From: a virus
Virus record (IMG/VR): IMGVR_UViG_3300017963_000717
Location: 1-25,200 of that record
Length of the DNA: 25,200 nucleotides
Reading direction: 5' to 3' (one strand)
Shown here piece by piece: positions 1,275-22,442 of this stretch. The notes under the pieces were generated by a model. It was not told the origin of the DNA. It saw only the letters and a list, made by a program, of their open reading frames with translations, and made no database searches. Position 1 is the stretch's first letter. Each line of letters begins with the position of its first letter. A program made the position numbers and the translations under genes.

Positions 1275-1283
1275 GACGCTGAC

Positions 1284-1311
1284 AGGATACCCGCCTCACG
1301 CGAAAAGGCAA
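1284..1311 (-). promoter_or_regulatory. Cassette promoter P1 (TTGCCT-16-TATCCT)
   Basis: On the minus strand TTGCCT (1311-1306), a 16-nt spacer containing TTTTCGCG, and TATCCT (1289-1284), followed by 9 nt and the ATG at 1274. The sequence fits a sigma70-type promoter and closely matches the other copies. Predicted transcription start is within about 3 nt of the ATG. Confidence 0.75.
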
Positions 1312-1313
1312 AC

Positions 1314-1343
1314 GGGGGAGCCGGTTTCTTTCCGGCGTCCCCC
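1314..1343 (-). terminator. Hairpin after the 103-aa gene, overlapping cassette P1
   Basis: Minus-strand stem GGGGGACGCCGG / CCGGCTCCCCC with one bulged base and an A-rich loop (AAAGAAA). It is followed by GTTTGCCTTTT, which acts both as the T-tract and as the -35 region of P1. It sits 7 nt after the stop of the upstream gene. Confidence 0.7.
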
Positions 1344-1350
1344 TCCGAGA

Positions 1351-1662
1351 TCAGACCCCGAGCTGCCCGGCCAGGCCGAGGTCGATCAGGCGGGCCCAGA
1401 CCTCCATGGCGTGCCAGGCGCTCGCCAGGTCGTCGGCCTCCATCTCGAAGCTGAAGCTCATGACGCGGCAGGTGCCGTCGGCCAGCTCCTCCAGGACGTA
1501 GCCGCCCCAGGCGTCGTCGCCTTCTCCGGTCTCGCGGCTCCACCACTCGCCGTCGGGCTGCTGCTTCCACTCGAAGACAGGTCGGTCGTTCATGCCGACC
1601 TTGCGGTCGAGGGCGAGGGAAAGGATGGCGGAGGCGCTGGTGTACGTTTCGGTGATCTTCAT
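1351..1662 (-). CDS. Hypothetical protein (103 aa), first gene behind promoter P2
   Basis: 103 aa starting MKITETYTSAS. Acidic, with aromatic-rich stretches (EWKQQPDGEWWSRE, WGGYVLEELADG) that suggest a small beta-rich fold followed by a C-terminal helix (DDLASAWHAMEVWARLIDLG). No family recognised. The ATG at 1662 is 9 nt downstream of the -10 box, as in the sister genes, and no Shine-Dalgarno fits. It is monocistronic by context: its own promoter upstream and a strong hairpin right after its stop. Confidence 0.68.
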   Translation of the reverse strand: MKITETYTSASAILSLALDRKVGMNDRPVFEWKQQPDGEWWSRETGEGDDAWGGYVLEELADGTCRVMSFSFEMEADDLASAWHAMEVWARLIDLGLAGQLGV

Positions 1663-1671
1663 GACGCCACC

Positions 1672-1699
1672 ATACTACCCGCCTCACGCGAAAAGGCAA
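1672..1699 (-). promoter_or_regulatory. Cassette promoter P2 (TTGCCT-16-TAGTAT)
   Basis: TTGCCT (1699-1694), a 16-nt spacer with TTTTCGCGTGAGGCGGG as in P1, TAGTAT (1677-1672), then 9 nt to the ATG at 1662. The spacer is identical to that of P1, so similarity extends well beyond the two hexamers. Confidence 0.72.
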
Positions 1700-1709
1700 A
1701 CGGGAGGCA

Positions 1710-1723
1710 TCGCTTTTCTGCGA
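1710..1723 (-). terminator. Weak hairpin after the ClpP-like gene
   Basis: Minus-strand TCGC-AGAAAA-GCGA just after the stop at 1729, upstream of P2. The stem is short, but the loop is the same A-rich AGAAAA seen upstream of P7. It may work as a weak terminator or as an A-rich upstream promoter element. Confidence 0.4.
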
Positions 1724-1728
1724 GAGTC

Positions 1729-2223
1729 TCAGGCCGGGAAGATGATCTCGTCCACCAGGCCCCACTCCAGGGCCTGCTCCGCGCCGAAGAACGTGTCCGT
1801 GCCCGTCATGCGCCGGAGCCAGAAGCGGTGGTCCTTCCGCGCGCTGTAGCGCGCCAGGAGCCGGGCATAGGTCTCCGTCATGCGGCGGCCCCACGTCACG
1901 TTGGCCTCGACGTGGTCGAGCGTGCCGTCCGCCTCCTCCAGGCTGATCGAGTGCAGCATCCAGACGGTGTTCGGCATCGTCGTGCGCTGGCCCGGGGCCC
2001 CGCAGGCGACGATGAGCGGCGCGGCCGACTGGCACCGGCCCACGGCGCAGGTGCGGACGATGCGCGGCGAAGCGGCGATCAGGTCGTGCAGGCCGAACGC
2101 CAGCTCCACGTCACCGCCGGGCGAGCAGACGAGCAGGTCCAGCGCGGAGCTTCCGACGACGAGCTGCTGCGCGAGCTGCGCGAAGCGCTCCTCGGTGATC
2201 TCGCCGTTCAGGAATAGCTTCAC
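1729..2223 (-). CDS. ClpP-like serine peptidase
   Basis: 164 aa with the ClpP/crotonase fold signature. The catalytic triad can be read: S66 in GRCQSAAP, H91 in WMLHSIS, D143 in TGTDTFFGAEQA, with Ser-His spacing of 25 as in ClpP. SPGGDV (34-39) matches the oxyanion/strand motif, and the C-terminus EWGLVDEI is typical. The GTG start at 2223 overlaps the TGA of the phosphoesterase gene (GTGA). In phages ClpP-like enzymes often process capsid proteins, but no portal or capsid gene is nearby. It sits among small early-type genes, so a role against host or phage proteins is possible. No adjacent ATPase is seen. Confidence 0.85.
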   Translation of the reverse strand: MKLFLNGEITEERFAQLAQQLVVGSSALDLLVCSPGGDVELAFGLHDLIAASPRIVRTCAVGRCQSAAPLIVACGAPGQRTTMPNTVWMLHSISLEEADGTLDHVEANVTWGRRMTETYARLLARYSARKDHRFWLRRMTGTDTFFGAEQALEWGLVDEIIFPA

Positions 2224-3515
2224 TCGTCCAGCCAGTTCCGCCGCCAGTCGGGCATCTCCCCCGAACGGTCGTCCGTCAGGTGCAGGCCCTCGAACGTGCA
2301 GAAGCCGTCGTTCGTCACCACCGGGTACTGCTGCACGCGGCCCGTGCGCGGGTGGAGGAAGGCGATGCCGAATCCCTTCTGCCAGCCGCTGTTCCGCTTC
2401 TTGAAGAGGTAGGCTTTGCCCGCGCGCTCCGTGCAGCCCATGGGCGTCGACATCCAGGAGTGCGCGCCCATGGACTCGGAGGTGGAGTAGGCCATGCCCG
2501 CGCGGTGGACGTGGCCGCTCTGGCCCGAGCGGCCCGCGGAGCGCAGCTCCTGGAGGTAGGGGGTCTGGCCGAGGCTCGTGCCGTGGTAGACGGTGTAGAA
2601 CCCATGGAAGAGCGTGCCCGGCAGGTCGTCCTCCTGATCCTTCGGCGAGGCGATGGTGCCCTGCTGCGCGAGCTTGATGCCCAGGTCATCGACGCCCGCG
2701 AGCTTGTCGAATCGCATGGTGGGGAGGCCCGACAGGGCGGGCGCGACCTGGGCCAGGTACATGGCGAGCCGGTCGAGGCCGTGGTTCCCGGAGCCCCATA
2801 CGATGTCGGCGTCGGGCGCGATGGCCCGGAGCTGCTCGAACATGGTGCGGGCGAACTCGAACTCCAGCTCCAGGGACACCGACCAGCCTGGGATCTTGGG
2901 GTGGCGCGAGATCGCCGCGCCCTCCAGGATGTCGCCGTTCAGGTAGATGACGTCCGGGTCCAGGTGCTCGACGGCGCGCTTGAAGCAGTACCAGGTGAAC
3001 GGGTCCAGGAACGTGGAGTGCGTGTCGCTGATCGACAGGATCAGCTCCACGTCCTTCGCCTCGCGGTCGCTCGGGTCGTAGCGGTGCGGGTGCATGAACC
3101 GCTCCTGGTAGCGGGCGGCGTGCTCGCGGCGCGACTGCTCCGCGCGGGCGCTCTTCCACCTGCGGGTGCCGATCTTGTCGACCAGGCCCGCGACCTCCTT
3201 CGCGTGCTCGAACGTGCCGAACTGCCGCTCGACGTGCTCGATGTACCAGGAGCCCATGCGCTTGTAGCGCTTGCGGGTCAGCGTGCGGTCACGCCAGCCT
3301 CGCGGGTTCAGCTCCTCATCCTCGGCGACGCGGATCATGTCCGCGACCAGCTCCTCCACGGTGGGCTCGCCCTCGCGCTTCGCGTTCCGCTCCCGCTCCG
3401 CCTCGGCGGACTCGCGGGCCTTGCGGTCCTGGTAGCGGCGGCGCTCCGCCTCGTTCAGGCGGACGCTGTCGGGTGCTGCGAGCCACTTGTCGTAGCCGGT
3501 CTCTTCGTCACTCAT
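2220..3515 (-). CDS. Calcineurin-like metallophosphoesterase with N-terminal DNA-binding-like domain
   Basis: 431 aa. The C-terminal two thirds carry the metallophosphoesterase motifs in order: SDTH (D164, H166), NGDI (D195), GNH (243-245), a later His (H311) and GHVH (334-337). The first about 50 residues are charged and helical. Residues about 54-111 (ELVADMIRVAEDEELNPRGW... to FEHAKEVAGL) resemble the repeat domain that accompanies homing endonucleases and binds DNA. Similar phage proteins are annotated as phosphoesterases or DNA repair exonucleases. The ATG at 3515 lies inside the end of the upstream gene (8-nt overlap), so translation is coupled. A DNA-processing phosphodiesterase is inferred; the substrate is unknown. 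Confidence 0.85.
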   Translation of the reverse strand: MSDEETGYDKWLAAPDSVRLNEAERRRYQDRKARESAEAERERNAKREGEPTVEELVADMIRVAEDEELNPRGWRDRTLTRKRYKRMGSWYIEHVERQFGTFEHAKEVAGLVDKIGTRRWKSARAEQSRREHAARYQERFMHPHRYDPSDREAKDVELILSISDTHSTFLDPFTWYCFKRAVEHLDPDVIYLNGDILEGAAISRHPKIPGWSVSLELEFEFARTMFEQLRAIAPDADIVWGSGNHGLDRLAMYLAQVAPALSGLPTMRFDKLAGVDDLGIKLAQQGTIASPKDQEDDLPGTLFHGFYTVYHGTSLGQTPYLQELRSAGRSGQSGHVHRAGMAYSTSESMGAHSWMSTPMGCTERAGKAYLFKKRNSGWQKGFGIAFLHPRTGRVQQYPVVTNDGFCTFEGLHLTDDRSGEMPDWRRNWLDE

Positions 3516-3765
3516 GGATGGGTGCCAGGTCGGCGATGCCCAGGCAGGCGTGGAGGTGGTTGTACGCGGTGGAGTTCGCGCGGATGCCGTAGGTCGGGGC
3601 CAGGTAGGTCCGGTGGAACCTGTTCAGGCTCAGGACCACCTTGCCGGACTGGACGTCCTCGACGAAGCGCACGAAGTCGGCTGCGGCCTTCGGGTTCGAG
3701 CAGATCGAGCAGCGCGTGCCCGGTCGTTTCGGGCCCGTGGTGCTGGCCCATTCGTCGTAGTTCAT
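3508..3765 (-). CDS. Small putative zinc-binding, HTH-like protein (85 aa)
   Basis: 85 aa. CSIC near residues 19-22 and a distal HLHAC could form a Cys/His metal site. The spacing and the following helices resemble small phage proteins of the CxxC...H...H type with a resolvase-like helix-turn-helix, some annotated as DNA-binding. Its ATG overlaps the stop of the 29-aa ORF (ATGA), and its end overlaps the phosphoesterase start. Function not established. Confidence 0.6.
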   Translation of the reverse strand: MNYDEWASTTGPKRPGTRCSICSNPKAAADFVRFVEDVQSGKVVLSLNRFHRTYLAPTYGIRANSTAYNHLHACLGIADLAPIHE

Positions 3766-3851
3766 CCGATCGTGGCCTGGAGCATGGCGGCTGCGGCGAA
3801 GCCACCGAGGAAGATAGCGAACGGCGGGATGCTGGTGATGATGTCCTCCAT
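3762..3851 (-). CDS. Membrane microprotein (29 aa)
   Basis: 29 codons. After MEDIITSIPP the peptide is one hydrophobic stretch with small residues (FAIFLGGFAAAAMLQATIG), long enough to cross a membrane. Support comes from GC3-rich codons and an exact ATGA overlap with the next gene. No Shine-Dalgarno precedes the ATG. Role unknown; such peptides can be holin-like, inhibitors, or simply coupled leader ORFs. Confidence 0.5.
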   Translation of the reverse strand: MEDIITSIPPFAIFLGGFAAAAMLQATIG

Positions 3852-3897
3852 GGTACTGGAAAGATCGGCAGGATGGTGGTCGAGAATGAAGGGCCGA

Positions 3898-3913
3898 AGC
3901 CGGTTTCCCGGCT
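3898..3913 (-). terminator. GAAA-tetraloop hairpin after the 66-aa gene
   Basis: AGCCGG-GAAA-CCGGCT on the minus strand, 16 nt after the stop at 3930, followed by the pyrimidine-rich TCGGCCCTTCATTCTC. The stem is compact with a stable GNRA loop, but the T-tract is imperfect. Confidence 0.5.
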
Positions 3914-3929
3914 CCGTCCCAGGTTGGGA

Positions 3930-4130
3930 TCAGGCGGTCTTCAGCTCCCACCCGCGGGCGCGGAGGTTGCGATAGGTCTCGCGGGCCTCCTCGATGCCGT
4001 CGACGTCGGCGGACTCGCCCATGTAGTCGTCGGCGTACCACAGCTCGACGGTGCCGTCGGTGCGGGGGACGAAGCGGACGTAGTCGCCGTTCGGGCTGAC
4101 GAGGGTGTAGTGCTGCGCGGTGTTCTTCAT
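3930..4130 (-). CDS. Hypothetical small protein (66 aa)
   Basis: 66 aa starting MKNTAQHYTLVSPNGDYVRF. Likely a short beta-sheet (YVRFVPRTDGTVELWYADDY) followed by a helix (GIEEARETYRNLRARGWELKTA). No family recognised. It is expressed from cassette promoter P3, with 9 nt between the -10 box and ATG and no Shine-Dalgarno, and is followed by a hairpin. The first four residues match those of several other cassette genes although the rest is unrelated. Confidence 0.68.
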   Translation of the reverse strand: MKNTAQHYTLVSPNGDYVRFVPRTDGTVELWYADDYMGESADVDGIEEARETYRNLRARGWELKTA

Positions 4131-4139
4131 GACGCTGAC

Positions 4140-4167
4140 AGTATAGCGCCCTCACGCGAAAAGGCAA
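4140..4167 (-). promoter_or_regulatory. Cassette promoter P3 (TTGCCT-16-TATACT)
   Basis: TTGCCT (4167-4162), a 16-nt spacer with TTTTCGCGTGAGGG, TATACT (4145-4140), 9 nt, ATG at 4130. Close to the bacterial -10 consensus. Confidence 0.78.
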
Positions 4168-4169
4168 AT

Positions 4170-4196
4170 GGAATCCCCGGGATTCCCGAGGATTCC
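4170..4196 (-). terminator. Strong intrinsic terminator after the 168-aa gene
   Basis: Minus-strand GGAATCCTCGGG-AAT-CCCGGGGATTCC, a 12-bp stem with one G-T wobble, followed by ATTTGCCTTTT. As at 1314-1343, the T-rich tail contains the -35 box of the next promoter (P3). Confidence 0.75.
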
Positions 4197-4208
4197 TTCC
4201 GTCCCGGA

Positions 4209-4715
4209 TCAGCGCACTCTCAGGCCGTGGTTCAGGGACAGGCCGGTCAGCTCGCGGGCGAAGTCCCGCAGGATCTCGCTGCGCCCATCGTAGGGCGCAG
4301 CGTTCAGGCGGCCCAGCAGCTCCTCGATCTCGCCGTCTTCGAGCTGGACCACCAGGAGGTCCCGGTGGAGCGAGCGGTAGCGCCAGCCACCGGAGGGCGT
4401 GGTGCGTCGGCTTGTGAGCTGCTCGGTGTAAACGCGAGTCTCGCGGCAGCCTTCGACGGTCGCCTGGTAGGCGTACCTCGCCGGGTGGTGCGTCTTCCGG
4501 GCGTACTCTCCGGCGTGCTGCCAGGTGACCCGGACATGGTGCCCGCCCATGCCGAGGCTATCATCGTAGGTCACCTCGAAGTCGATGCCGCTCACAACCT
4601 TATCCCAGGAGTCGGCCGTCCTCATGATGATCTGGGCGTAACGCCCGACGTCGCCTTCGCGGGGCAGCTCGGTGTTCAGGTAGGCGTGGGTTCTCGTTTC
4701 GGTGGTGTTCTTCAT
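4209..4715 (-). CDS. Hypothetical protein (168 aa), promoter P4
   Basis: 168 aa starting MKNTTETRTHAYLNTEL. Mixed alpha/beta with several Tyr/His-rich strands (GIDFEVTYDD, GHHVRVTWQHAGEY) and a C-terminal helical half (LVVQLEDGEIEELLGRLNAAP). No family recognised. An in-frame GTG at 4724 would give three extra residues, but the ATG at 4715 is preferred because it lies at the fixed 9-nt distance from the -10 box and reproduces the ATGAAGAACACC start of its sister genes. A strong terminator follows. Confidence 0.7.
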   Translation of the reverse strand: MKNTTETRTHAYLNTELPREGDVGRYAQIIMRTADSWDKVVSGIDFEVTYDDSLGMGGHHVRVTWQHAGEYARKTHHPARYAYQATVEGCRETRVYTEQLTSRRTTPSGGWRYRSLHRDLLVVQLEDGEIEELLGRLNAAPYDGRSEILRDFARELTGLSLNHGLRVR

Positions 4716-4720
4716 GACGC

Positions 4721-4999
4721 TCACAGTATAGCGCCCTTCCGCGGAAAAGCAAGTCGCGGTGCCAGTTTCTTTTCCGTCGCGTCCACGGCGTGGGACAGGA
4801 GCCCCGGCAAGCAGCGAATGACGGTCGGTGTCTCGCTCGGGAAAAATCCCGCCGCGACGATCTTCCCGCCGAGATGAATCTCCGCGGATCTCCGGTCGAC
4901 GATGTAGGCGCGCAGCTCCCCGAGGTGCTCGGGAATCCGCGGACGGACCTCGGCCAGGGCGGCCACGATCTCCTCCTGGATTCGAGCCGTGGTGCTCAT
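4721..4999 (-). CDS. Hypothetical protein (92 aa)
   Basis: 92 aa. N-terminal helix (TTARIQEEIVAALAEVRPRI), a central strand region (LRAYIVDRRSAEIHLGGKIVAAGFFPSE reads as beta-alpha), and a basic C-terminus. The last about 15 residues are encoded by the cassette hairpin and promoter P4, so this tail may have been acquired when the cassette replaced the original stop. The ATG at 4999 overlaps the upstream stop (ATGA), so it forms an operon with the 78-aa gene. Function unknown. Confidence 0.62.
   Translation of the reverse strand: MSTTARIQEEIVAALAEVRPRIPEHLGELRAYIVDRRSAEIHLGGKIVAAGFFPSETPTVIRCLPGLLSHAVDATEKKLAPRLAFPRKGAIL
4725..4752 (-). promoter_or_regulatory. Cassette promoter P4 (TTGCTT-16-TATACT), inside upstream gene
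   Basis: TTGCTT (4752-4747), a 16-nt spacer with TTCCGCGGAAGG, TATACT (4730-4725), 9 nt, ATG at 4715. Unlike P1-P3, the whole promoter lies within the last codons of the preceding 92-aa gene, whose stop is at 4721-4723. Confidence 0.72.
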
Positions 5000-5232
5000 G
5001 CGAGCACCTTGGCGAGGGCCATCTCGGCGGCCCTGATGTTCAGGAGGTTGGCCGCGGCCTCGGCGCGGCGGGAGAGGTCGTCGTCGCCCAGCCAGGAGGC
5101 CAGCTCGGACCTCTCCTCCAGGTCGCCGATCAGCGTGTCGTCGACCTCCAGGCCGCCGAGGGAGAGCACCGTGCGCGCGGCGCGGATGGTGGAGCGGATT
5201 TGTTTGCGGAGCGTTTGCAGGTCGTTCTTCAT
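4996..5232 (-). CDS. Hypothetical helical protein (78 aa), promoter P5
   Basis: 78 aa, predicted entirely helical: MKNDLQTLRKQIRSTIRAA, then GDLEERSELASWLGDDDLSRRAEAA and a C-terminal Ala/Leu helix. No motif recognised. The ATG at 5232 is 9 nt from the -10 box of P5 and shares the ATGAAGAAC start. It is followed, with a 4-nt overlap, by the 92-aa gene. Confidence 0.66.
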   Translation of the reverse strand: MKNDLQTLRKQIRSTIRAARTVLSLGGLEVDDTLIGDLEERSELASWLGDDDLSRRAEAAANLLNIRAAEMALAKVLA

Positions 5233-5241
5233 GACGCTGGT

Positions 5242-5269
5242 ACTATACCGCCTTGCCGCAGAAAGGCAA
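5242..5269 (-). promoter_or_regulatory. Cassette promoter P5 (TTGCCT-16-TATAGT)
   Basis: TTGCCT (5269-5264), a 16-nt spacer with TTCTGCGGCAAGG, TATAGT (5247-5242), 9 nt, ATG at 5232. Confidence 0.76.
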
Positions 5270-5305
5270 ACGGGGGAGCCGGTTCCTTTTCGGCGTCCCC
5301 CGTTT
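5267..5305 (-). terminator. Long hairpin after the wHTH gene
   Basis: Minus-strand AAACGGGGGACGCCG pairs with CGGCTCCCCCGTTT around an A-rich loop (AAAAGGAAC), with one bulge; it is the strongest cassette hairpin. The T-rich tail TTTGCCTTTC overlaps the P5 -35 box. It lies just after the stop at 5309. Confidence 0.75.
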
Positions 5306-5308
5306 GGA

Positions 5309-5521
5309 TCAGTCCACCTTGACGGGAAGAGCCATCATGCCACCGTCTGGGCTGATGCTCAGAGTGATGAGGCCGCGCTTCTCCAGCGCCCGGAGAGTGG
5401 ACGCGGGCACGTTGATCTGCCAGCCGCGGTCATCGACATCGTGACCGGCGAACATGCCTCCGCGCTTGGTGACAAGGTCGAGGATCTGCTGCATCTTCGG
5501 GGTGAGTTCGGTGTTCTTCAT
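5309..5521 (-). CDS. Winged-helix-like small DNA-binding protein (70 aa)
   Basis: 70 aa. TPKMQQILDLVTKRGG followed by ASTLRALEKRGLITLS matches the helix / recognition helix / wing pattern of small winged-helix domains (MarR- or phage-type). Basic and glycine-containing strands follow (ISPDGGMMALPVKVD). A DNA-binding regulator is inferred; the target is unknown, though the repeated promoters in the window are an obvious candidate. Expressed from P6 with the usual 9-nt gap and MKNT start, and closed by a strong terminator. Confidence 0.62.
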   Translation of the reverse strand: MKNTELTPKMQQILDLVTKRGGMFAGHDVDDRGWQINVPASTLRALEKRGLITLSISPDGGMMALPVKVD

Positions 5522-5530
5522 GACGCTGGT

Positions 5531-5558
5531 ACTATACCCGCTCCACGCGAGAAAGCAA
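5531..5558 (-). promoter_or_regulatory. Cassette promoter P6 (TTGCTT-16-TATAGT)
   Basis: TTGCTT (5558-5553), a 16-nt spacer with TCTCGCGTGGAGCGGG, TATAGT (5536-5531), 9 nt, ATG at 5521. The upstream gene's TGA (5562-5560) directly abuts the -35 box. Confidence 0.77.
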
Positions 5559-5559
5559 G

Positions 5560-5829
5560 TCAGCCGTCCGGCTTTTCCGCGAGCGCCTCCAAACGAGACC
5601 GGACCACGTCCTCCAGGTCGATGCCCAGCTCCTCGCGGTTCTCCACCAGCGCGGCCGCCCAGAGCAGGAAGCGGAAGCCGCGCGGGTCGACCATGAACTG
5701 GCGCTCATGCTTCGAGCCGTCGCCACCCTCGACGTGGACGGTGGCGAGCTGGAGCCCAGCCTCCTTCGCGGCGGCCCGCATCTCCCGGCTGTAGGTCACC
5801 CGGCTCTTCTGCTTCGACTCCTCGGCCAT
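5560..5829 (-). CDS. Hypothetical protein (89 aa) downstream of the primase
   Basis: 89 aa: basic N-terminus (AEESKQKSRVTYSREMRAAAKEAG), a short strand region (LQLATVHVEGGDGSKHERQF), and helices (RFLLWAAALVENREELGIDLEDVV). No family recognised. The ATG at 5829 overlaps the primase TGA (TGATG), so it is coupled to the primase-helicase and may serve replication. A longer in-frame start exists upstream but lies in the primase shadow. Its last codons form a small stem (AGCC/GGCT) next to P6. Confidence 0.65.
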   Translation of the reverse strand: MAEESKQKSRVTYSREMRAAAKEAGLQLATVHVEGGDGSKHERQFMVDPRGFRFLLWAAALVENREELGIDLEDVVRSRLEALAEKPDG

Positions 5830-8216
5830 CAGAAGGGCTCCTCGACCTTCTGCTGCTCGGGCGCGACGGCCTCCCACTCGTAGGGACCGCCGTGCGTCTC
5901 GTCGAACAGGGCCCGCAGCTCGGCGAGCTTCGGCAGCACGAAGCAGTTCGGCCGCGGCGTGGTGCGCTCCTCGCCGGACTGCGGATGGACCGGCGGCAGG
6001 TCGACCTGGTCGAGCCCACTCGCCTGGCGATAGGCGACGTTGCCCTTAGTGGCCTTCGCCAGGAAGCGGCGCATCGCCGTCACGGAGATCCGGTCGCCGT
6101 AGGGCACGGCCATATTGTAGTCGTACACGAGGGACCCGGTCGGGATCAGCGCCCCGTCGGCCAGGCTGGCGTCGTCGATCGCCCCGACCTGGAGCGCGTC
6201 GAAGAACCACTTCGCCTCGGGGGAGAACGAGTGAGCCTTCTGGTCCTGGAGCGCGGCCGTGCGCGGGCGGGAGCGCGGGTCGAACTTCGCGACGGGTCGC
6301 GTCATCAGCATGTGCAGCAGCGTCTCGTAGCCGCCGCTGCTCAGCTCGCGCGCGATGTCGGCGAAGTAGCTGCCGTCCTGGATGTGCGCGCCGCCGACGT
6401 CGAGCACGACGAAGCGCCGGTCGTCGATGCCGGTGGGCACCACCCAGTCGTCGTTAGAGGCGAGGATCAGGTGCAGGTAGTTCCGCTCCACCGCGGCGTC
6501 CACGCCCTTGGCCTCCACGATCAGGTTCTCCTCGGTCACCATGGTCTTCAGCATGGACTCGTGGCGCCGGTCGTGGGCCGCGATGGCCTCGTCCGCGAAC
6601 AGCAGCACGCAGTCCCGCAGGTGCGCGTTGAAGGAGCCCACCAGGTGCTTCGCGTCGGTCACCTGCTTGAAGTGCTGGCCGAAGAGCTTCCCGAAGTGCT
6701 TCGCGAAGGAGCCCTTGCCCGCGCCCTGCGAGCCACGCAGCACGATGGCGGTATGCCCAGGCTGGTCGGGCTTCTGCACGGCGAGCGCCATCCAGTCGAG
6801 CAGGTACTCGAAGACCTCCTCGTTCCCGGAGCAGATGTTCTCGCGGACGTGGGCCAGGTACTTCTCGCACGAGCCGCCGGGCAGCGCGTTCACGGCCCAG
6901 CCGCGCCAGATGTTGTAGACGTCGGAGGCGGTCTCCTTCCCCGGCTCGAAGACGATCGAGCGGAAGCTCCGGCGCTGCGGGTGGTCGAGCCACCACTTGC
7001 CTGCGGGCACCAGCTTCGAGTTCTCTCCGTCGCCGACCTCGACCTTGCGGTTGCTGTAGAACTGGCGGAAGTCGGACGGCGACTGGTACACCAGCGCGCT
7101 CGTGTCCGGGTCCTCGTAGACCACGCGGCAGCGGCCGCCGCCCGTGTTCTGAACGACGGCATAGCGGCCGTTCAGCTCCATCAGCACCGGGTCGACGGCG
7201 AACTCGTGGGCCCGCTCGATCTGGCGCTTGGCGTAGCGCTCGGGGCGGCCGTTCGTCCCGTCCAGGACGGACTCGGAGATCGCCCAGTCGGCGTCGGTGA
7301 TGAGCGAGTAGATCATGTCGTCCGACACGCCCGCGCGCACCAGCTCGCAGACGACGTACCAGAGCGCGCCGCTGCGGCCCTCGTCGGCCCAGCGGTCGGG
7401 CTCGTCGGGGTGGAAGCCCTGGGCGATGACCGTCTTACAGAAGTCGTTCACGGTGTTGGGCAGCTCGTCCAGCGACATGATGCGCCGAACGTTCTCGTCG
7501 ACCTTGACCGTCGAGCCGGTCGACAGGCGCTGTCCCTTGGGCAGCGCGGTCTGGAGCTGCGGCGCCTTCGTGAAGGTGGACAGCGGGTAGCTCGCTCCGT
7601 TCATGTCGACGATCGTCGAGAGCGCGGCCGTGCGGCCCTTCTTCAGCTTGCGCTTGTCGGGCCAGTTCACGGTGCCCGGCAGGCGCGCGATCCGGTCGAC
7701 GTTGTGGCACGAGTCGGCGCCGAACAGCAGTTCGAGCTGGAGGTTGTAGAGCTTCGCCTCCTCGTAGCGGGCCTCGTCGCCCTCGATCTCGAAGGGCTCG
7801 TCCAGGCGCCAGAAGCCCCAGAAGCCTCCGCCCGAGTCGACGATCGCCGAGGGCGCGGGCACGCCCTCGGGGAGGTTCGTCGTCAGCAGGCCCATCAGGC
7901 GCTTGCGCTCGGCCTCGAAGTCCTCGCCCGTGCGCGGGTCGAGGTCGACGTGGAGGAACGACATGCGGGCGATGTCCGTTCGCAGCGCCTTCTTCGCCAT
8001 GTCGCGGCTCGGCGGGTTGACGCTGAAGTAGACGTTCAGGTCGGCCTCAGCCGCCTTCTCCAGGAAGGTGTGGACCTCGTCCTCCTGCCCCGCGCGGAAG
8101 GTTCCGTGCAGGTCGCCCACTCCTCCGCCCACCTTGATGGTGTTCAGCAGCCAGCGCTCGTCCGGGTGGACGAAGCGCAGCCAGCGGACGGACTCTTCAT
8201 GGCGGGGCTCGATCAT
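5829..8216 (-). CDS. PrimPol-like primase fused to SF3 (D5/P4-type) helicase
   Basis: 795 aa from the ATG at 8216, which has GAGGTG about 10 nt upstream and an ATGA overlap with the upstream stop. The N-terminal part looks like an archaeo-eukaryotic-type primase: HVDLDP (D91, D93) gives the metal-binding acidic pair, followed by DSGGGFWGFWRLDEP (about 127-141) and HNVDRIARLPGT (about 171-182). The C-terminal part is a D5/VapE-like superfamily 3 helicase: Walker A GSQGAGKGS (about 495-503), Walker B LLFADEA (about 538-544), and sensor-like LILASNDDWVVP (about 583-594). It should prime and unwind DNA during phage replication. No DnaB or DnaG gene is seen in the window, consistent with this protein filling both roles. 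Confidence 0.88.
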   Translation of the reverse strand: MIEPRHEESVRWLRFVHPDERWLLNTIKVGGGVGDLHGTFRAGQEDEVHTFLEKAAEADLNVYFSVNPPSRDMAKKALRTDIARMSFLHVDLDPRTGEDFEAERKRLMGLLTTNLPEGVPAPSAIVDSGGGFWGFWRLDEPFEIEGDEARYEEAKLYNLQLELLFGADSCHNVDRIARLPGTVNWPDKRKLKKGRTAALSTIVDMNGASYPLSTFTKAPQLQTALPKGQRLSTGSTVKVDENVRRIMSLDELPNTVNDFCKTVIAQGFHPDEPDRWADEGRSGALWYVVCELVRAGVSDDMIYSLITDADWAISESVLDGTNGRPERYAKRQIERAHEFAVDPVLMELNGRYAVVQNTGGGRCRVVYEDPDTSALVYQSPSDFRQFYSNRKVEVGDGENSKLVPAGKWWLDHPQRRSFRSIVFEPGKETASDVYNIWRGWAVNALPGGSCEKYLAHVRENICSGNEEVFEYLLDWMALAVQKPDQPGHTAIVLRGSQGAGKGSFAKHFGKLFGQHFKQVTDAKHLVGSFNAHLRDCVLLFADEAIAAHDRRHESMLKTMVTEENLIVEAKGVDAAVERNYLHLILASNDDWVVPTGIDDRRFVVLDVGGAHIQDGSYFADIARELSSGGYETLLHMLMTRPVAKFDPRSRPRTAALQDQKAHSFSPEAKWFFDALQVGAIDDASLADGALIPTGSLVYDYNMAVPYGDRISVTAMRRFLAKATKGNVAYRQASGLDQVDLPPVHPQSGEERTTPRPNCFVLPKLAELRALFDETHGGPYEWEAVAPEQQKVEEPF

Positions 8217-8545
8217 CGGCTTTTCACCTCGGACCAGTAGTCGATGAGGCGCTGCGGGTCCTGCTGTCCGCGCTCCATTTGCGTCAGCCACCAGGGCGAC
8301 ACGTCGAGCGCCTTGGCGAGAGCCGTGCGGCTCATGCCCTCGCGGCGGCGAAGGATGACCGCGGCCTCGTTCGGGGCGAGCTTCCCGATCTTGACGGCGG
8401 GCACGTCGCCCTCGCCGTTCTCGGCCTGGCGGTAGGCCCAGGTGGTGATGTCGAAGTAGTCGGCGGCCTGGGCTTGGTTCAGGTCGGCGCGGCGGCGCCA
8501 GATCAGGAGGCGCTCGTGCCTCGCGAGGTCAGACGTTGCAAGCAT
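8213..8545 (-). CDS. Protein with two helix-turn-helix domains (110 aa)
   Basis: 110 aa. Two Cro/C1-type HTH-like units can be read: LLIWRRRADLNQAQAADYFD (about 12-32) and ILRRREGMSRTALAKALDVSPWWLTQMERG (about 64-93), the second being the clearer match with its S-x-T-x-L-A pattern. It is probably a DNA-binding protein; directly upstream of the primase-helicase it could be a regulator or an origin-recognition factor. The ATG at 8545 lies 43 nt inside the VRR-NUC gene end. A shorter start is possible, but the first HTH would then be lost. Confidence 0.7.
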   Translation of the reverse strand: MLATSDLARHERLLIWRRRADLNQAQAADYFDITTWAYRQAENGEGDVPAVKIGKLAPNEAAVILRRREGMSRTALAKALDVSPWWLTQMERGQQDPQRLIDYWSEVKSR

Positions 8546-11501: not shown

Positions 11502-11801
11502 TCAGATGGCCCAGTCGGGCTCGCAGGCGTAGATGCGGGACATCTGGGCGTCGACCATGGCCTCGTAGAGGGCCTCCTCGTCGATGCCGGGATCCTCGTC
11601 GACCTCGTTCTCTTCGGTCCAGCCCAGGCTCTTGAGGCGGCGCCACTCGGCGCGGGCCCGCTCGCGGGGGACGAGGCGCTGGTCGGTGAGGCGAGCGCCC
11701 TCGAAGGTGTGGGTGCTGACGTCAGGGCCGCCCGCGTCGGTGACCTGGTAGGAGTCGCCGAGGCCGTTGGTGAGCGCGTGTTGCTTGATTTCGTTCTCCA
11801 T
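11502..11801 (-). CDS. Hypothetical protein (99 aa), promoter P7, upstream of polA
   Basis: 99 aa starting MENEIKQHALTNGLG, acidic toward the C-terminus (WTEENEVDEDPGIDEEALYEAM). No family recognised. The ATG at 11801 lies 9 nt from the -10 box of P7. The stop is only 5 nt before the polymerase ATG, so P7 probably also drives polA and the genes beyond it. Confidence 0.68.
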   Translation of the reverse strand: MENEIKQHALTNGLGDSYQVTDAGGPDVSTHTFEGARLTDQRLVPRERARAEWRRLKSLGWTEENEVDEDPGIDEEALYEAMVDAQMSRIYACEPDWAI

Positions 11802-11810
11802 GACGCTGAC

Positions 11811-11839
11811 AGGATACCAGGCCAGGCGCAGGAAAGCAA
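11811..11839 (-). promoter_or_regulatory. Cassette promoter P7 (TTGCTT-17-TATCCT)
   Basis: TTGCTT (11839-11834), a 17-nt spacer beginning TCCTGCG, TATCCT (11816-11811), then GTCAGCGTC and the ATG at 11801. The 9-nt segment after the -10 box is identical to that of P1 and P3. Confidence 0.74.
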
Positions 11840-11847
11840 ACGCTGGA

Positions 11848-11863
11848 CTCGCTTTTCTGCGAG
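11848..11863 (-). terminator. Hairpin after the HD nucleotidase gene, upstream of P7
   Basis: CTCGC-AGAAAA-GCGAG on the minus strand, immediately after the stop at 11868, followed by TCCAGCGTTTGCTTT. Loop and stem match the element upstream of P2 (1710-1723), with a better stem here. Possible weak terminator with the T-rich -35 region as tail. Confidence 0.5.
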
Positions 11864-11867
11864 CGTC

Positions 11868-18951: not shown

Positions 18952-19512
18952 TCAGAAGTCGCCGGTGGACTTCTTCGGCTTCGAGAGCTTGGCCTCGTTC
19001 ACGATGTACGCGCCGAACAGCTCCATGGGGAAGTCGCCACCCTCGGCGAGAAGGTCGCGGAGCACCTTCTTCAGCGTCATGGGATGGACGTTCTGGTCGT
19101 CGCGGGCCATGTACCCCGCGTCCTCGATCTTCGCGATCAGGTCGGAGCTGTCGCCCTTCCCGGCGTCGACGACCACCTGGTGCTTCACCACGTCGCCGAG
19201 GCCGTGCTCGTGAAGCCAGCGCATCGCGGCGGCCTTGCGGGCCTGCGGGATGGACGCCCGCACGTTCGTCGACACAGTGAGCTTCGAGCCGTTCTCCAGC
19301 GCGATCTCGGACAGCCCGAGCTGGGCCATCAGGTCCGGGATCGCGTGCTCGCGCAGGTGGCGGATGCGCTTGTCGGTGACCTTCAGCGCAGCGTCCTGCT
19401 CGGCGCGGGTCAGCTCGGCGTCCTGAAGCTCGCGGGCGAGTCCGGCGAGGTCGGACATGGAGGCGGTGCTCGGCGCGGCGTCGAAGGCACCATAGTCGGG
19501 AGTCTCGGTCAT
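18952..19512 (-). CDS. Conserved-type phage protein with N-terminal coiled coil (186 aa)
   Basis: 186 aa. Residues about 20-60 (LAGLARELQDAELTRAEQDA, then LKVTDKRIRHLREHAIPDLM) form a probable coiled coil. It is followed by a beta-rich part (LSEIALENGSKLTVSTNVRASI), an ARKAAAMRWLHEHG helix with a GD-V-K-HQVVV strand, and VHPMTLKKVLRDLL. This layout recurs in replication regions of many phages in proteins of unknown function. The ATG at 19512 has the same -10/9-nt geometry as the cassette genes. Confidence 0.7.
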   Translation of the reverse strand: MTETPDYGAFDAAPSTASMSDLAGLARELQDAELTRAEQDAALKVTDKRIRHLREHAIPDLMAQLGLSEIALENGSKLTVSTNVRASIPQARKAAAMRWLHEHGLGDVVKHQVVVDAGKGDSSDLIAKIEDAGYMARDDQNVHPMTLKKVLRDLLAEGGDFPMELFGAYIVNEAKLSKPKKSTGDF

Positions 19513-19521: not shown

Positions 19522-19550
19522 ATGCTACCGGGTCAAAGCCAGTCGGGCAA
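19522..19550 (-). promoter_or_regulatory. Diverged promoter P11 (TTGCCC-17-TAGCAT)
   Basis: TTGCCC (19550-19545), a 17-nt spacer, TAGCAT (19527-19522), 9 nt, ATG at 19512. It lacks the conserved cassette spacer and hairpin and overlaps the last codons of the helicase gene, but keeps the hexamers and the exact -10 to ATG distance. Confidence 0.55.
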
Positions 19551-20984
19551 GCAGTCCCCGGTGACTTCTGCACCGATGTCGCGCTTGTTCCGCAGGCTGT
19601 TCAGGATGGGGCGGTCGTAAGTGCCCAGGGCGACGAGGTCGATGTACTGCACGGCGCGGCTGGGCATCCCCGCGCGGTGCGCCCTGTCTTCCGACTGGAG
19701 GCGCTGGTCCAGCCGATAGCTGTTTGAGCAGTAGATCACGGTGCCCGCTCGGGTCAGCGTGATGCCCTCGCCCGCGACAGAGACCTTGCCCACGAACCAG
19801 CGCGGTCCGTCGTCCGAGTCCTGGAAGGCGCGGATCGCGGCCTGGCGCTCGTCGTCGCCGACCTGTCCGTCGAAGCGGACGCAGGTGTCGCCCAGGGCTG
19901 CGACGATCTGGTCGACCTCCCAGGTCCAGCGAGCGAAGATGATGGCCTTCCCCTGGACCTCCTCCAGCAGCTCCAGGAGCGCCTCCAGGCGGACGTTCTC
20001 GCCGACCGGGACGTCGGGGCCGTCGTCGGTGCCGGTGAAGCCGCAGGCGATCTGCTGGAGCCTCGTGAGGCGGGTGAGGGCGAAGTCCGCGCTGACCTCC
20101 TCGCCGGACTCCAGCACGGCGCGCAGCTCCGAGCGCAGCTCGTCGTAGAGGCGGCGCTGTTTCGGGTCCAAGGAGAACTCGCGCTGGGAGTAGATTTTGG
20201 GAGGCAGGTCGGGCAGCACCTCGGACTTCAGCTTGCGGTCTGTGACCTCGGCCACCAGCTCCTGAAGCTCGGGCAGGTTGCGGTAGCGGACGAGCTGGTT
20301 CCATTGCTGCGACCCGGACTGGCGGCGCTCGAAGATGCCGAACCGCTGCCTGAAGAGGTGGAAGTTCTTCAGCCCACGGGCGGTCCAGTAGTCCGCGTCC
20401 AGGACCCGAAGCTGGGCGTAGACGTCGAACGGTCCCTGGGCGATGGGCGTGCCCGTCAGGATGCGGGTCACCTTCGCGTACTTGGCCGCGGCGACGACGC
20501 GCATAGACGTCTTCGACCCGGGCGTCTTCAGGCGCGCGGACTCGTCGCAGACCAGCATACAGCGCCGCTCGGTCAGGAAGCGCTTCAGCGCGGCGCCCCC
20601 GAGCTTCGTTATGGTGGCCTCGTAGTTCATGGCGAGGATGGCGAGGCCCTCGTGCTGGATCGCGTCCTCGAAGGAGCGCTGGTCCTTCTTCGGCATCGGG
20701 TTCTTCGAGACCCAGGAGTGCGCGCGCCAGTCGACCCACTCGGGCATATGCCTCGGCAGCTCGGTCTCCTCCCAGTTGCGGTAGACGCCCTTCGGGGCGA
20801 GGACCACCAGGGCGTCGATGTCCCCGCGCTCGAAGCGCCAGGTCGCCGTCATGATCGACGCGAGGGTCTTGCCTGCGCCCATCTCCCAGAAGAGCCCGAA
20901 CTCGTCTAGGTCGCGCGTGCGCTCCCAGACCTCCCGCTGGAACGGGTAGGGCTCGTGGTCGCCCCAGTAGGTTCGCTCGGTCAT
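19533..20984 (-). CDS. SNF2-family DEAD-like helicase/translocase
   Basis: 483 aa. Q-motif region PYPFQREVWE, Walker A WEMGAGKTLA (motif I), VVLAPKGV (Ia), LVCDESARLK (II), RILTGTPI (III), AIIFARWTWEVD (IV), VAGEGITLTRAGTVIYCSNS (V) and Q-EDRAHRAG (VI) give a full SNF2 set. Phage SNF2-like helicases are usually in replication or recombination modules. The ATG at 20984 overlaps the stop of the 33-aa ORF (TGATG), which fixes the start; longer upstream reading is a shadow. Confidence 0.92.
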   Translation of the reverse strand: MTERTYWGDHEPYPFQREVWERTRDLDEFGLFWEMGAGKTLASIMTATWRFERGDIDALVVLAPKGVYRNWEETELPRHMPEWVDWRAHSWVSKNPMPKKDQRSFEDAIQHEGLAILAMNYEATITKLGGAALKRFLTERRCMLVCDESARLKTPGSKTSMRVVAAAKYAKVTRILTGTPIAQGPFDVYAQLRVLDADYWTARGLKNFHLFRQRFGIFERRQSGSQQWNQLVRYRNLPELQELVAEVTDRKLKSEVLPDLPPKIYSQREFSLDPKQRRLYDELRSELRAVLESGEEVSADFALTRLTRLQQIACGFTGTDDGPDVPVGENVRLEALLELLEEVQGKAIIFARWTWEVDQIVAALGDTCVRFDGQVGDDERQAAIRAFQDSDDGPRWFVGKVSVAGEGITLTRAGTVIYCSNSYRLDQRLQSEDRAHRAGMPSRAVQYIDLVALGTYDRPILNSLRNKRDIGAEVTGDCLPDWL

Positions 20985-21085
20985 CAGCCCAGGGTGCGGA
21001 GGAGGCTCGCCATGGCCCAGGCGGCGGCGGCGATCAGGAGCAGGTCGCAGAGAGCGACCAGCATGTTGCGGGTTGTGTCCTTCAT
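20984..21085 (-). CDS. Membrane microprotein (33 aa), promoter P8
   Basis: 33 aa: MKDTTRN followed by a hydrophobic stretch (MLVALCDLLLIAAAAWAMAS) and LLRTLG, a probable single transmembrane helix. It has its own AAAGGA Shine-Dalgarno about 4 nt before the ATG, a cassette promoter about 45 nt upstream, and a TGATG overlap with the helicase, so it is a convincing gene despite its size. Its MKDT start resembles the MKNT starts of the other cassette genes. Function unknown. Confidence 0.68.
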   Translation of the reverse strand: MKDTTRNMLVALCDLLLIAAAAWAMASLLRTLG

Positions 21086-21131
21086 CGGTCCTTTGCGGCG
21101 GAGTAGGGGGGGGAGCCTCGCACACGGGAGA

Positions 21132-21160
21132 AGAGTATCCGGTCCGCCGCAGGAAAGCAA
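21132..21160 (-). promoter_or_regulatory. Cassette promoter P8 (TTGCTT-17-TACTCT), with leader
   Basis: TTGCTT (21160-21155), a 17-nt spacer beginning TCCTGCGG, TACTCT (21137-21132). The predicted start at about 21125 leaves a leader of about 40 nt with a run of eight C residues and an AAAGGA site. It is the only minus-strand copy with a normal leader; a shifted -10 (GATACT) is an alternative. Confidence 0.6.
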
Positions 21161-21179
21161 GCGGAGGACCGGGTTTCTG

Positions 21180-21413
21180 TCAGGGTGCCTCTAACTGGTC
21201 CAGGGCCTTGCGGAGCTGGGAGGCTTCGTTCAGCACGGTGCGGCGGTCGCTCGGGGTCGAGGCCAGGACGAAGACCTTCGGCCCGCCCTCGGGGCGGACG
21301 AGGGCCGCGTGGCCTGACCCGGTGAGCCGGAGCACCAGGCCCAAGTCCAGAGCGCGCTGGACCTGGACCCGGAGCTTCGGTGGCCTGGCCCTCAGGAAGC
21401 GGCGGGTGTTCAT
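21180..21413 (-). CDS. Hypothetical basic protein (77 aa)
   Basis: 77 aa, strongly basic N-terminus (MNTRRFLRARPPKLRVQVQR), then strands (GSGHAALVRPEGGPKVFVLAS) and a helical C-terminus (TVLNEASQLRKALDQLEAP). No family recognised; charge suggests nucleic-acid binding. The ATG overlaps the metallopeptidase stop (ATGA), so it is coupled to it. P8 starts right after its stop. Confidence 0.63.
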   Translation of the reverse strand: MNTRRFLRARPPKLRVQVQRALDLGLVLRLTGSGHAALVRPEGGPKVFVLASTPSDRRTVLNEASQLRKALDQLEAP

Positions 21414-22045
21414 CCGCGGGGCAGCAGGTCGTCGAACGGATCGAACACGGCGCGCGACCTGCGCTTCGCCTTCGTGACGGTGAAGCTGGCCTTCCGGCGA
21501 GGCGTGAAGCGGACGCCACGCTCGCGGAAGGAGTCGCGGAGGGCGTCGTGCTCGGCCTTGCCCTGGAACAGGCGGGTCAGCTCCAAAAAGGTGCGGGCGA
21601 ACAGGCGGCCGTGCTGCTCCCAGCTCGGGCAGAGCGTGTGCGCGATCTCGTGCAGGACGACGTCGCGGGTCCGGGCCCAGTCGGGGAGGGTGATGTAGCT
21701 GGAGCCGTAGGCTGCGGCGCGAGTGCGGCCGCGTCCGTCGCGGACCTCCAGGGTGCGGACTCCCCAGCGTCGCTGGAACGTCGCGGAGTTCAGAACCTTG
21801 GCGACGAAGCGCAGCGTGTCCGCGTAGCTCATGGGCGCGCCTCGGCGGACGACTCGCTCCGCGCTGTAGACCTTCGTGCGCTGCCAGTCGCGATCGAGCC
21901 CAGGGCTCATGCGGGTCTGGTGGCGCCAGAGATTCTGGTCCTTCCCGAAGAAGTTGTAGCAGGCTCGGCCGCCGTGGGAGGCGCGAGGGGTGAGGCGGAA
22001 GCCGCCTTCGCAGGTTGACTGGACGTCGGTGCTCTTGATTTTCAT
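21410..22045 (-). CDS. SprT-like zinc metallopeptidase
   Basis: 211 aa. LHEIAHTLCP (H132, E133, H136) with H145 nine residues later gives a zincin site in a helix as in SprT/Spartan-like proteins. The C-terminus is basic (RRKASFTVTKAKRRSRA). Spartan removes proteins crosslinked to DNA; in phages the targets of such proteins are unknown. The ATG at 22045 has GAGGG about 9 nt upstream and follows the 85-aa gene by 10 nt. Confidence 0.78.
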   Translation of the reverse strand: MKIKSTDVQSTCEGGFRLTPRASHGGRACYNFFGKDQNLWRHQTRMSPGLDRDWQRTKVYSAERVVRRGAPMSYADTLRFVAKVLNSATFQRRWGVRTLEVRDGRGRTRAAAYGSSYITLPDWARTRDVVLHEIAHTLCPSWEQHGRLFARTFLELTRLFQGKAEHDALRDSFRERGVRFTPRRKASFTVTKAKRRSRAVFDPFDDLLPRG

Positions 22046-22055
22046 GGTGGTGCCC

Positions 22056-22313
22056 TCAGGCAGGAACGTGGTCGATTCCCCAGCGGGAGCCGGGAGCAGT
22101 GTGGACGAGGAGGCCGCGGTCCTTCGCGATCCATGTGGGGATCTCCCACCCGTCGCCGGAAACCTCGACGAAGCGTCGAGGGATCCATGCCTTGCGAGTG
22201 TAGTCCACTCGGCCGTAGCCGATGGGATCGACGACCATCATGCGGACCTCGATGTGCAGCGCACGAGCGGTCGCGTTGATGACGCGGCCTCGGATGTGGG
22301 TCGTTTCGTTCAT
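22056..22313 (-). CDS. Hypothetical protein (85 aa), first gene of the leftward block
   Basis: 85 aa starting MNETTHIRGRVINATARALH. Likely beta-rich (HIEVRMMVVDPIGYGRVDYT, WIPRRFVEVSGDGWEIPTWI). No family recognised. The ATG at 22313 lies only 6 nt after the TATGAT -10 box of P9, so the predicted transcript starts at or next to the A of the ATG. The nearby GGAGG then cannot act in a normal way, since it would lie upstream of the transcript. Confidence 0.68.
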   Translation of the reverse strand: MNETTHIRGRVINATARALHIEVRMMVVDPIGYGRVDYTRKAWIPRRFVEVSGDGWEIPTWIAKDRGLLVHTAPGSRWGIDHVPA

Positions 22314-22319
22314 GCCTCC

Positions 22320-22347
22320 ATCATACCCGCTACCCGCGAGAAAGCAA
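22320..22347 (-). promoter_or_regulatory. Cassette promoter P9 (TTGCTT-16-TATGAT), strictly leaderless geometry
   Basis: TTGCTT (22347-22342), a 16-nt spacer with TCTCGCGGG, TATGAT (22325-22320), then GGAGGC and the ATG at 22313. An A-rich stretch (AAGAAGAAACCGG) upstream resembles the cassette loop and could be an UP element. It faces P10 56 bp away. Confidence 0.76.
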
Positions 22348-22403
22348 GCGGTAGATCCGGTTTCTTCTTGGTTGTCTTTTTGTGAGAACTTCGGACAAGT
22401 CGC

Positions 22404-22432
22404 TTGCCTTTTCGCGGCGAGCGTGGTATGAT
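22404..22432 (+). promoter_or_regulatory. Rightward cassette promoter P10 (TTGCCT-17-TATGAT)
   Basis: TTGCCT (22404-22409), a 17-nt spacer with TTTCGCGG as in the minus-strand copies, TATGAT (22427-22432). Predicted start near 22439, giving a leader of about 43 nt with AGGAGGG 9 nt before the ATG at 22482. The only plus-strand copy. Confidence 0.78.
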
Positions 22433-22442
22433 GCTGGCGTGT

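Follow-up and report, generated by a model that had tools for sequence, protein, structure and literature searches.

Repeated promoter-start cassettes with an optional putative terminator and probably leaderless starts in front of small genes of a virus record

Introduction

Phages carry many small orphan genes, and how such newcomers come to be expressed is an open question. Morons are single genes in phage genomes that have their own promoter and terminator. The promoter-early stem-loop (PeSL) cassettes of T4-like phages were reportedly the subject of work by Arbiol et al. in 2010 and Comeau et al. in 2014. They combine a sigma-70-type promoter with a stem-loop between small genes, and genes are gained and lost at the repeats (PMC4503421). 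For the Gordonia phage Vardy, a 50-bp intergenic repeated promoter motif has been reported (PMC9671010), and for cluster O mycobacteriophages leaderless genes at SigA promoters have been predicted (PMC4351075). Here we describe ten copies (c1 to c10) of a promoter-start cassette in the IMG/VR virus record IMGVR_UViG_3300017963_000717, which was analysed over its whole length of 25,200 bases (the window).

A preliminary description of the window had proposed a mobile or duplicating module composed of a hairpin, a promoter and a start region. The element is real. Its copies look like working promoter-start cassettes that are long established, with a putative terminator fused to some of them and with starts that are probably leaderless, and relatives gain and lose genes at such cassettes. 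No published description of the element was found in the open-access literature. The accessible portions of PMC4351075, PMC5313236 and PMC5348500 do not describe it, and the word "promoter" does not occur in the main text of papers on Mesyanzhinovviridae and Vojvodinavirus (PMC11946847, PMC8471281).

Results

A two-block weight matrix, trained on nine of the ten copies (c8 was left out), was scanned over the window and returned exactly ten sites with 24.8-35.4 bits. The next best sites reached 11.7 and 11.4 bits, and 20 mononucleotide shuffles of the window gave 0-1 sites above 11 bits each. As the matrix was trained on these very copies, the evidence lies in the score gap and not in the scores. 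Each of the ten sites faced the start of a gene encoded on its own strand (minus for nine, plus for c10), and a scatter over random positions was not seen. The preliminary description had tied the cassette to the starts of small genes, and this link held; the genes so headed have no detected relatives.

The element spans about 37-40 nt and consists of TTGCYTT, a CGCG-like spacer and TANNNT; cassette positions given as single numbers refer to the first T of TTGC. In nine of the ten copies, TTGCYT and TANNNT are separated by 16-17 nt, whereas c8 has GATACT at 15 nt. The spacer opens with YYYGCG, and the block after TTGC in the window is TTGCYTTYYYGCG. A strict sigma-70 consensus scan of the window found only c3, c5 and c10, each with 9 of 12 matches, and no other site.

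The likeness of the copies reaches into the first codons, as had been noted before. Among c1-c7, mean pairwise identity was 0.95 both in the hexamer preceding the ATG and at +1 to +6, and 0.75 at +7 to +12; beyond +12 it was 0.28-0.42, with 0.28 expected from composition. The similarity thus extends to codon 4 (ATG AAG AAC ACC), with background after it, and six copies in a relative (collected locus L013) have the identical codon-4 edge, with ATGAAAAACA. AGCGTC-ATG occurs at 6 minus-strand starts of the window; its one plus-strand occurrence, at 19073, lies opposite a gene and without a promoter, and was taken as chance. ATGAAGAAC is present at 5 gene starts and nowhere else in the window.

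The distance between the -10 box and the ATG is quantised. It is 9 nt in c1-c7 and 6 nt in c9; that promoter and start codon are separated by next to nothing is not mentioned in the preliminary description. Of 23 cassettes sampled from five phage records (c1-c7 and c9 of the window, and loci L012, L013, L014 and L015; the leadered c8 and c10 were omitted), 17 had 9 nt, five had 6 nt and one had 8 nt, and GTC or GTT preceded the ATG in every one of the 17 cassettes of the 9-nt class. The usual distance from -10 to +1 is 6-7 nt. Given this distance and the observed spacing, the first transcribed base would be either the G of GTY or the A of the start codon, and transcripts at the 6- and 9-nt copies (8 of the 10 in the window) would be leaderless or have a leader of about 3 nt. 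Cassettes c8 and c10 do not adjoin the start codon; each has a leader of about 40 nt with a purine-rich, ribosome-binding-site-like stretch.

Cassettes c1-c9 lie on the minus strand, as do the genes behind them. Cassette c1 (1263-1345, through codon 4; TTGCCT from 1311; TATCCT; start codon at 1274) heads a gene at 1020-1274 whose 84-aa product is cysteine-rich and begins with MKNT. It is followed by c2 (1651-1728; TTGCCT from 1699; TAGTAT; start codon at 1662) with a gene at 1351-1662 (103 aa), and by c3 (4119-4200; TTGCCT from 4167; TATACT; start codon at 4130) with a gene at 3930-4130 (66 aa). Behind c4 (4704-4790; TTGCTT from 4752; TATACT; start codon at 4715) lies a gene at 4209-4715 (168 aa). 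An open reading frame (ORF) at 4721-4999 contains the upstream half of c4; its last codons are formed by the c4 promoter, and it stops just past the -10 box. Cassette c5 (5221-5308; TTGCCT from 5269; TATAGT; start codon at 5232) heads a gene at 4996-5232 (78 aa). The gene at 5309-5521 (70 aa), with a MerR-like stretch below the Pfam cut-off, is headed by c6 (5510-5590; TTGCTT from 5558; TATAGT; start codon at 5521; one base after the upstream stop codon). Cassette c7 (11790-11867; TTGCTT from 11839; 17-nt spacer; TATCCT) has its start codon at 11801 (ATGGAGAAC) and precedes a gene at 11502-11801 (99 aa).

The diverged c8 (21085-21200; TTGCTT from 21160) leads, after its leader, to the ATG at 21085 of a 33-aa ORF (20984-21085; MKDTT...). 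This ORF is hydrophobic (MKDTTRNMLVALCDLLLIAAAA...), overlaps a helicase start and has a weak match in locus L082 (E 0.016). Cassettes c9 and c10 form a divergent pair in which 57 bp separate the two -35 boxes (22347-22404) and no gene lies between. The former (22302-22380; TTGCTT from 22347; TATGAT; start codon at 22313, 6 nt past the -10 box) heads a gene at 22056-22313 (85 aa), and the latter (22404-22484, plus strand; TTGCCT; 17-nt spacer; TATGAT) has a leader with GGAGG and an ATG at 22482, opening a gene at 22482-22766 (94 aa).

The preliminary description had placed a hairpin in all ten copies. The element itself is real in ten sites; the hairpin is strong in three of them, c1 (GGGGGAcGCCGG-AAAGAAA-CCGGCTCCCCC; z -4.3), c3 (z -5.2) and c5 (z -5.8, nearly as c1), as judged against shuffles. 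A short hairpin with an AGAAAA loop is present in c2 (z -0.5, not significant) and c7 (z -0.9), and c4 and c6 both have a non-significant z of 0.3. The hairpin of c1, c3 and c5 stops about two bases short of TTGCC, and therefore the T-tract of the putative terminator would be the -35 region itself; the c5 stem can extend into TTGCC. Among all cassettes examined, 9 of 49 folded at z < -2.5, compared with 10 of 480 random 42-mers. The hairpin's own arms paired better than swapped arms (p 0.0017), with the signal coming from c1, c3 and c5. A consensus terminator scan chose only c3 among the cassettes, and its totals showed no excess (6 v 5.1 and 5 v 5.0 for the window v shuffles).

We also considered a second dyad, in which the sequence before TTGC would pair with the spacer to give a bidirectional terminator. 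It was rejected, as swapping the arms between copies made the pairing no worse (p 0.41 and 0.24 for own against swapped arms) and only c8 has such a dyad. In that copy (21130-21175), a long near-perfect dyad CCGGTCC.CCGC/GCGG.GGACCGG lies across the -35 box (z -5.1) and is followed by a T-rich stretch; c8 may have turned into a terminator.

The cassette is conserved in uncultivated relatives. With a primase profile, the best 80 of 133 confirmed IMG/VR loci were kept (L numbers denote collected loci). Relatives at 54-60% primase identity carry the cassette in five copies (L012), eight (L013), one (L014) and one (L015). Three cassettes with TAGCCTT were found in L018, two of them 6 nt from the ATG and one leadered, and three with TTGCCTTTTAACC in L028. 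The post-TTGC block of L013/L012 reads TTGCCTTTCCGCG/GAG. Three L013 cassettes (8319, 9894 and 11721) share an extra upstream block, AAATAAATCGCACGTAGA, which has no significant hairpin and looks freshly copied. Weak matrix sites at L013 2021, L012 4608, L014 795 and L018 9543 have one sequence form before an HTH gene and were taken as conserved coding sequence.

The genes behind the cassettes are for the most part different ones. Among 27 cassette-led proteins compared (8 from the window and 19 from six relatives), we found three orthologous pairs. The ten cassette-led proteins of the window had no match at E 0.01 in PHROG, the eight that were compared with Pfam (those of c1-c7 and c9) belonged to no family there, with the sub-threshold MerR stretch as the one trace, and none of the ten had a homologue at E 1e-4 in the collected loci (94-96 records, some overlapping). 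By comparison, seven further window ORFs no longer than 110 aa were tested, and 4 of these have such homologues; the difference (about 0.015, hypergeometric by hand) is to be read with the greater length of the c4 gene (168 aa) in mind and with the fact that the loci were fetched by primase, which favours neighbours of the primase gene.

One slot could be followed in detail. L018 keeps the interval from the post-primase gene (window 5560-5829; 38% identical) to the metallophosphoesterase gene (window 2220-3515; 62%). Five genes of the slot were tested, those of c3, c4, c5 and c6 and the ORF at 4721-4999, and had no match in L018. The slot gene at 3508-3765 (85 aa), which adjoins the phosphoesterase gene, matches L018 16985-17194 (31%, E 5e-7). 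In L018 this homologue stands behind cassette 16908, and in the window behind a 29-aa ORF without a detected cassette. Of two related phages, one thus has this gene behind a cassette and the other does not.

Genes for SprT-like metallopeptidases are repeatedly found at cassettes or close to them (L012 12607, L013 7147, L096 14376, L093 14069, L094 14902 and L095 13424); these calls rest on annotation in the Bordetella phages CN2, MW2 and FP1 and were made by eye in L012 and L013. The window has a weak SprT-like Pfam match at 21410-22045 (E 0.011).

Gene turnover at cassettes could be observed in the Bordetella phages CN1, CN2, MW2 and FP1 (Vojvodinavirus, Mesyanzhinovviridae), of which 25-kb stretches were scanned by pattern. 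They contain 4, 4, 3 and 4 cassettes, respectively, all on the gene strand. These cassettes are diverged, with TTTACTTYTTCGG as the post-TTGC block and with CACTATACTTCTTC, and are mostly leadered, with GGAG before the ATG. In CN1 the order is cassette 12172, gp39, cassette 12622 and gp40. MW2 has a single cassette (12947) whose upstream flank is that of CN1 12172 and whose downstream flank is that of CN1 12622, so that the two phages differ by one cassette-gene unit. A near-identical cassette with leader and ATG, in which the phages show from one to several differences, opens the SprT-like gene directly in CN1, and a 66-aa orphan followed by the SprT gene in CN2 and MW2. In FP1 the cassette is near-identical and the leader less alike, and a different 54-aa orphan is opened before SprT. 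The gain and loss of genes at cassette borders, which the preliminary description had named as a test of mobility, is thus seen in these phages.

CN2 and FP1 have a cassette directly after the gp34 stop codon, which CN1 and MW2 lack. Such presence or absence of one cassette among four closely related phages, together with fresh copying in L013, would also be expected if the cassette were an autonomous mobile or selfish repeat that inserts before genes. We regard this as highly improbable. No target-site duplication or inverted ends were noticed (no dedicated search was made), and the position of all ten window sites at same-strand gene starts is explained by selection for expression.

In the window, c5 is an apparent mosaic: its hairpin block is that of c1 (2 differences in 37), and its block from the -10 box to codon 3 is identical to that of c6. 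Likewise, c2 and c7 share the AGAAAA hairpin and not the promoter. Such mixed sharing is what recombination among copies would give. The idea of mobility is partly supported, and for the window itself we infer it.

The post-TTGC block is kept far better than an ordinary spacer in the window, in L013/L012 and in the Bordetella phages. This raises the question of whether a phage regulator uses the spacer (TTTYYCGCG...) as its operator, in which case the cassettes would form a dispersed operator-promoter regulon. A candidate regulator is the protein at 8213-8542 (minus strand), which has two HTH_3-like stretches (Pfam HTH_3, E 3.4e-10) and adjoins the primase gene; an HTH gene was present in 11 of 11 cassette-bearing loci checked (L008, L012-L015, L018, L028 and L093-L096, with CN1 counted twice). 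However, homologues of the HTH protein occur in 55 of 96 collected loci, including that of phage PaMx11 (L005), in which no cassette was found, and the association is therefore not specific. There is also no conserved dyad around the spacer, as the comparison of own and swapped arms given above indicates. We consider the operator explanation unlikely.

A site resembling the cassette was also found outside the 80 kept primase loci, in a 183-kb phage record (L004): TTGCCTTTTCGCG-9 nt-TATACT-GCTGGCGTC, with weaker sites on the same strand. The first pattern used had about 18 specified bases, for which 1-2 chance matches are expected (on the assumption of about 5e10 bases, a guess), and two were found. 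The other, L003, lies in a coding-like stretch and was taken as chance. About 8 further bases match in L004, and its core site is probably real; a later pattern was built after L004 had been seen and is no independent test of it. If real, L004 points to a promoter type set by the host. Back-to-back divergent promoter-like sites sharing GCAAGC/GCTTGC lie at L004 1614-1639. A match in a Clostridia metagenome-assembled genome (L092), a single site followed by a leader of about 40 nt, was taken as chance, and BLAST searches with two cassette queries against phages gave no match.

Several observations weigh against a joint that ends one transcript, starts the next and spreads genes. TTGCYT agrees with the E. 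coli -35 consensus, which may not be that of the host, in only 3-4 of 6 positions. A strong terminator hairpin is limited to 3 of the 10 window copies, with z of -0.9 to +0.3 in the remaining seven, and the own arm ranks last of ten in c9 and fourth to seventh in five more copies. Because of these two results, the hairpin is an optional part of the cassette. Sites in the relatives were selected with a pattern that required the start codon to lie 3-11 nt past the -10 box and was therefore biased towards leaderless cases; in an unconstrained matrix scan, the five best L012 sites and seven of the eight listed L013 sites agreed with this pattern, the eighth being 2021, and 11721 was not listed.

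With respect to mobility, window copies are hardly more like each other (0.771) than like copies in other phages (0.755), the same is true of L012 (0.772 v 0.755), and cassettes of the three orthologous pairs are 0.72-0.78 identical, with no clear sign of swapping. Concerted evolution was thus rejected as proof of recent spread, as it was seen only in L013 (0.83 within v 0.748 between genomes). Since identity within the window hardly exceeds that between phages, any spread there would be old, and the copies look constrained rather than freshly spread. For the window genome itself, no relative was found that is close enough to show the mobility first proposed (best primase identity 60%). Finally, gene turnover also occurs at places without a detected cassette, such as a large variable stretch at about 14,980-16,060 of L096. 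When breakpoints in Vojvodinavirus were collected as edge places of unshared segments of at least 100 bases (six pairs, both directions), 9 of 53 fell in cassette units, where about 2 would be expected from the share of sequence (3-4%) and about 7 from gene starts (15/109). In this sample, cassettes are thus among the turnover borders, at a rate no higher than that of other gene starts.

These results would also fit an explanation in which each transcription unit needs a strong host-type promoter, host RNA polymerase (perhaps with a phage regulator) selects the likeness, and turnover is ordinary recombination without involvement of the cassette. The divergence of window copies, equal to that from other phages' copies, and the lack of breakpoint enrichment over gene starts both agree with it, as do the L004 core and its weaker same-strand sites, which would be expected if similar hosts dictate the sequence. 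Against this, the likeness takes in codons 2-4, and pairs of copies also share the terminator block, which is more than a promoter would require, and the MW2 hybrid junction and the cassette-to-cassette indel fit recombination at repeats. On this evidence, we find this explanation rather doubtful.

The record is listed without end repeats and is probably a fragment. Its GC content is 0.68. The minus strand encodes a replication module with the two-HTH protein, a primase-helicase, a PolI-type polymerase, a dCMP deaminase, an HD protein, a ribonucleotide reductase, helicases and a methylase; some of these names were given by resemblance only. Identity to Pseudomonas phages such as PaMx11 and Ab18 is 45-50% for the primase and polymerase, with the primase at 45% to PaMx11, Ab18 and Bordetella phage CN1 alike; a further comparison of the polymerase gave 46-51%. 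In comparison with PaMx11 (L005 and its IMG/VR copy L019), identity was 51% for the deaminase and 47% for the HD protein, and the gene order HD protein-polymerase-dCMP deaminase-HTH protein-primase is the same. The listed primase and polymerase matches are not T4-like and include PaMx11 and CN1, both Mesyanzhinovviridae by record. Judged on the replication genes of a fragment, the window phage is probably a distant ally of this family. The best DNA matches in the phage collection cover 3% of the window, and a single-protein scan and a strict pattern revealed no close relative. A search of the window against Rfam gave nothing at gathering scores, and a tRNA search found none.

Discussion

We consider it likely that the cassette is a PeSL-like modular joint which, in the lineage of the window, also supplies a leaderless start. 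Each copy would serve as a compact joint for expression, at which host RNA polymerase acts with a sigma-70-type factor. Some copies would contain an intrinsic terminator that ends the transcript of the previous gene and whose T-tract (GTTTGCCTTTT) doubles as the next -35 region. The -10 box, of the TATACT/TATAGT class, lies 16-17 nt further downstream. Transcription would start at a purine about 7 nt past the -10 box, so that the mRNA would begin at AUG or with GUC/GUU before AUG, and translation would follow the leaderless route, perhaps aided by the A-rich first codons AUG AAG AAC ACC. Cassettes c8 and c10 would feed leadered genes instead. A gene body behind the joint would need neither its own promoter nor a ribosome-binding site. 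Since the same joint recurs, units of cassette and gene could be gained, lost or exchanged by recombination between copies, in the way that has been proposed for PeSLs in T4-like phages.

A more far-reaching version is possible, and we put it forward tentatively. In this version, a standard start joint of about 70 nt would close one transcript, open the next and provide a leaderless AUG together with a tag coding for an N-terminal MKNT; frames recombined behind codon 4 would be expressed at once, and recombination between cassettes would drive the turnover of orphans across the phage family.

A repeated joint that supplies termination, promoter and leaderless start would be a simple answer, outside the T4-like phages, to the question of how newcomers are expressed. 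Such a joint would point to places in which new small genes can be sought, and it offers a compact leaderless expression element for bench tests. Gene turnover at such switches may help to explain how phages swap small genes, and proof of mobility would make the PeSL idea a general one instead of a T4 speciality.

Like a moron, the cassette makes an accessory gene an independent transcription unit; unlike morons, many units in the window share one standard joint. The Vardy motif likewise recurs in front of small genes as a promoter motif that includes a -10 box. It belongs to another phage family and host, and in the three copies examined the annotated start codon is found 16 nt after ATGAAAGGA, which reads as a ribosome-binding site and suggests a leadered start. 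The cassettes of CN1, CN2, MW2 and FP1 are most directly comparable, having the same order of parts, a similar -35/spacer block, small genes behind many of them and, in some, a hairpin fused to the -35 box (CN1 12172, z -6.0; CN1 14306, z -3.2; CN2 13799, z -3.5). They differ in their block and box sequences (TTTACTTYTTCGG and CACTATACTTCTTC) and in the GGAG leader before the ATG in most.

The likeness to the T4-like elements, already drawn in the preliminary description, is apt. Both place a sigma-70-type promoter repeatedly between small genes, joined to a stem-loop (in the window element, in some copies), and genes come and go at the repeats, as seen for the present cassette in the Bordetella phages. 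When gaps of phage RB49 were sorted by eye, without published PeSL coordinates, the terminator preceded the promoter in 2 of 20, as in the window cassettes, whereas the stem lay between the boxes or straddled the -10 box in about 9 of 20. RB49 genes behind the promoter have a leader of about 30-40 nt, mostly with GGAG or GAGG. In the window, by contrast, the hairpin, where present, precedes the -35 box and lends it the T-tract, the start codon follows 6-9 nt after the -10 box, and the phage is of another family and not a T4-like myovirus. The window element would work like a PeSL and differs from it in anatomy and mode of start, and we therefore do not file it as a member of the PeSL class.

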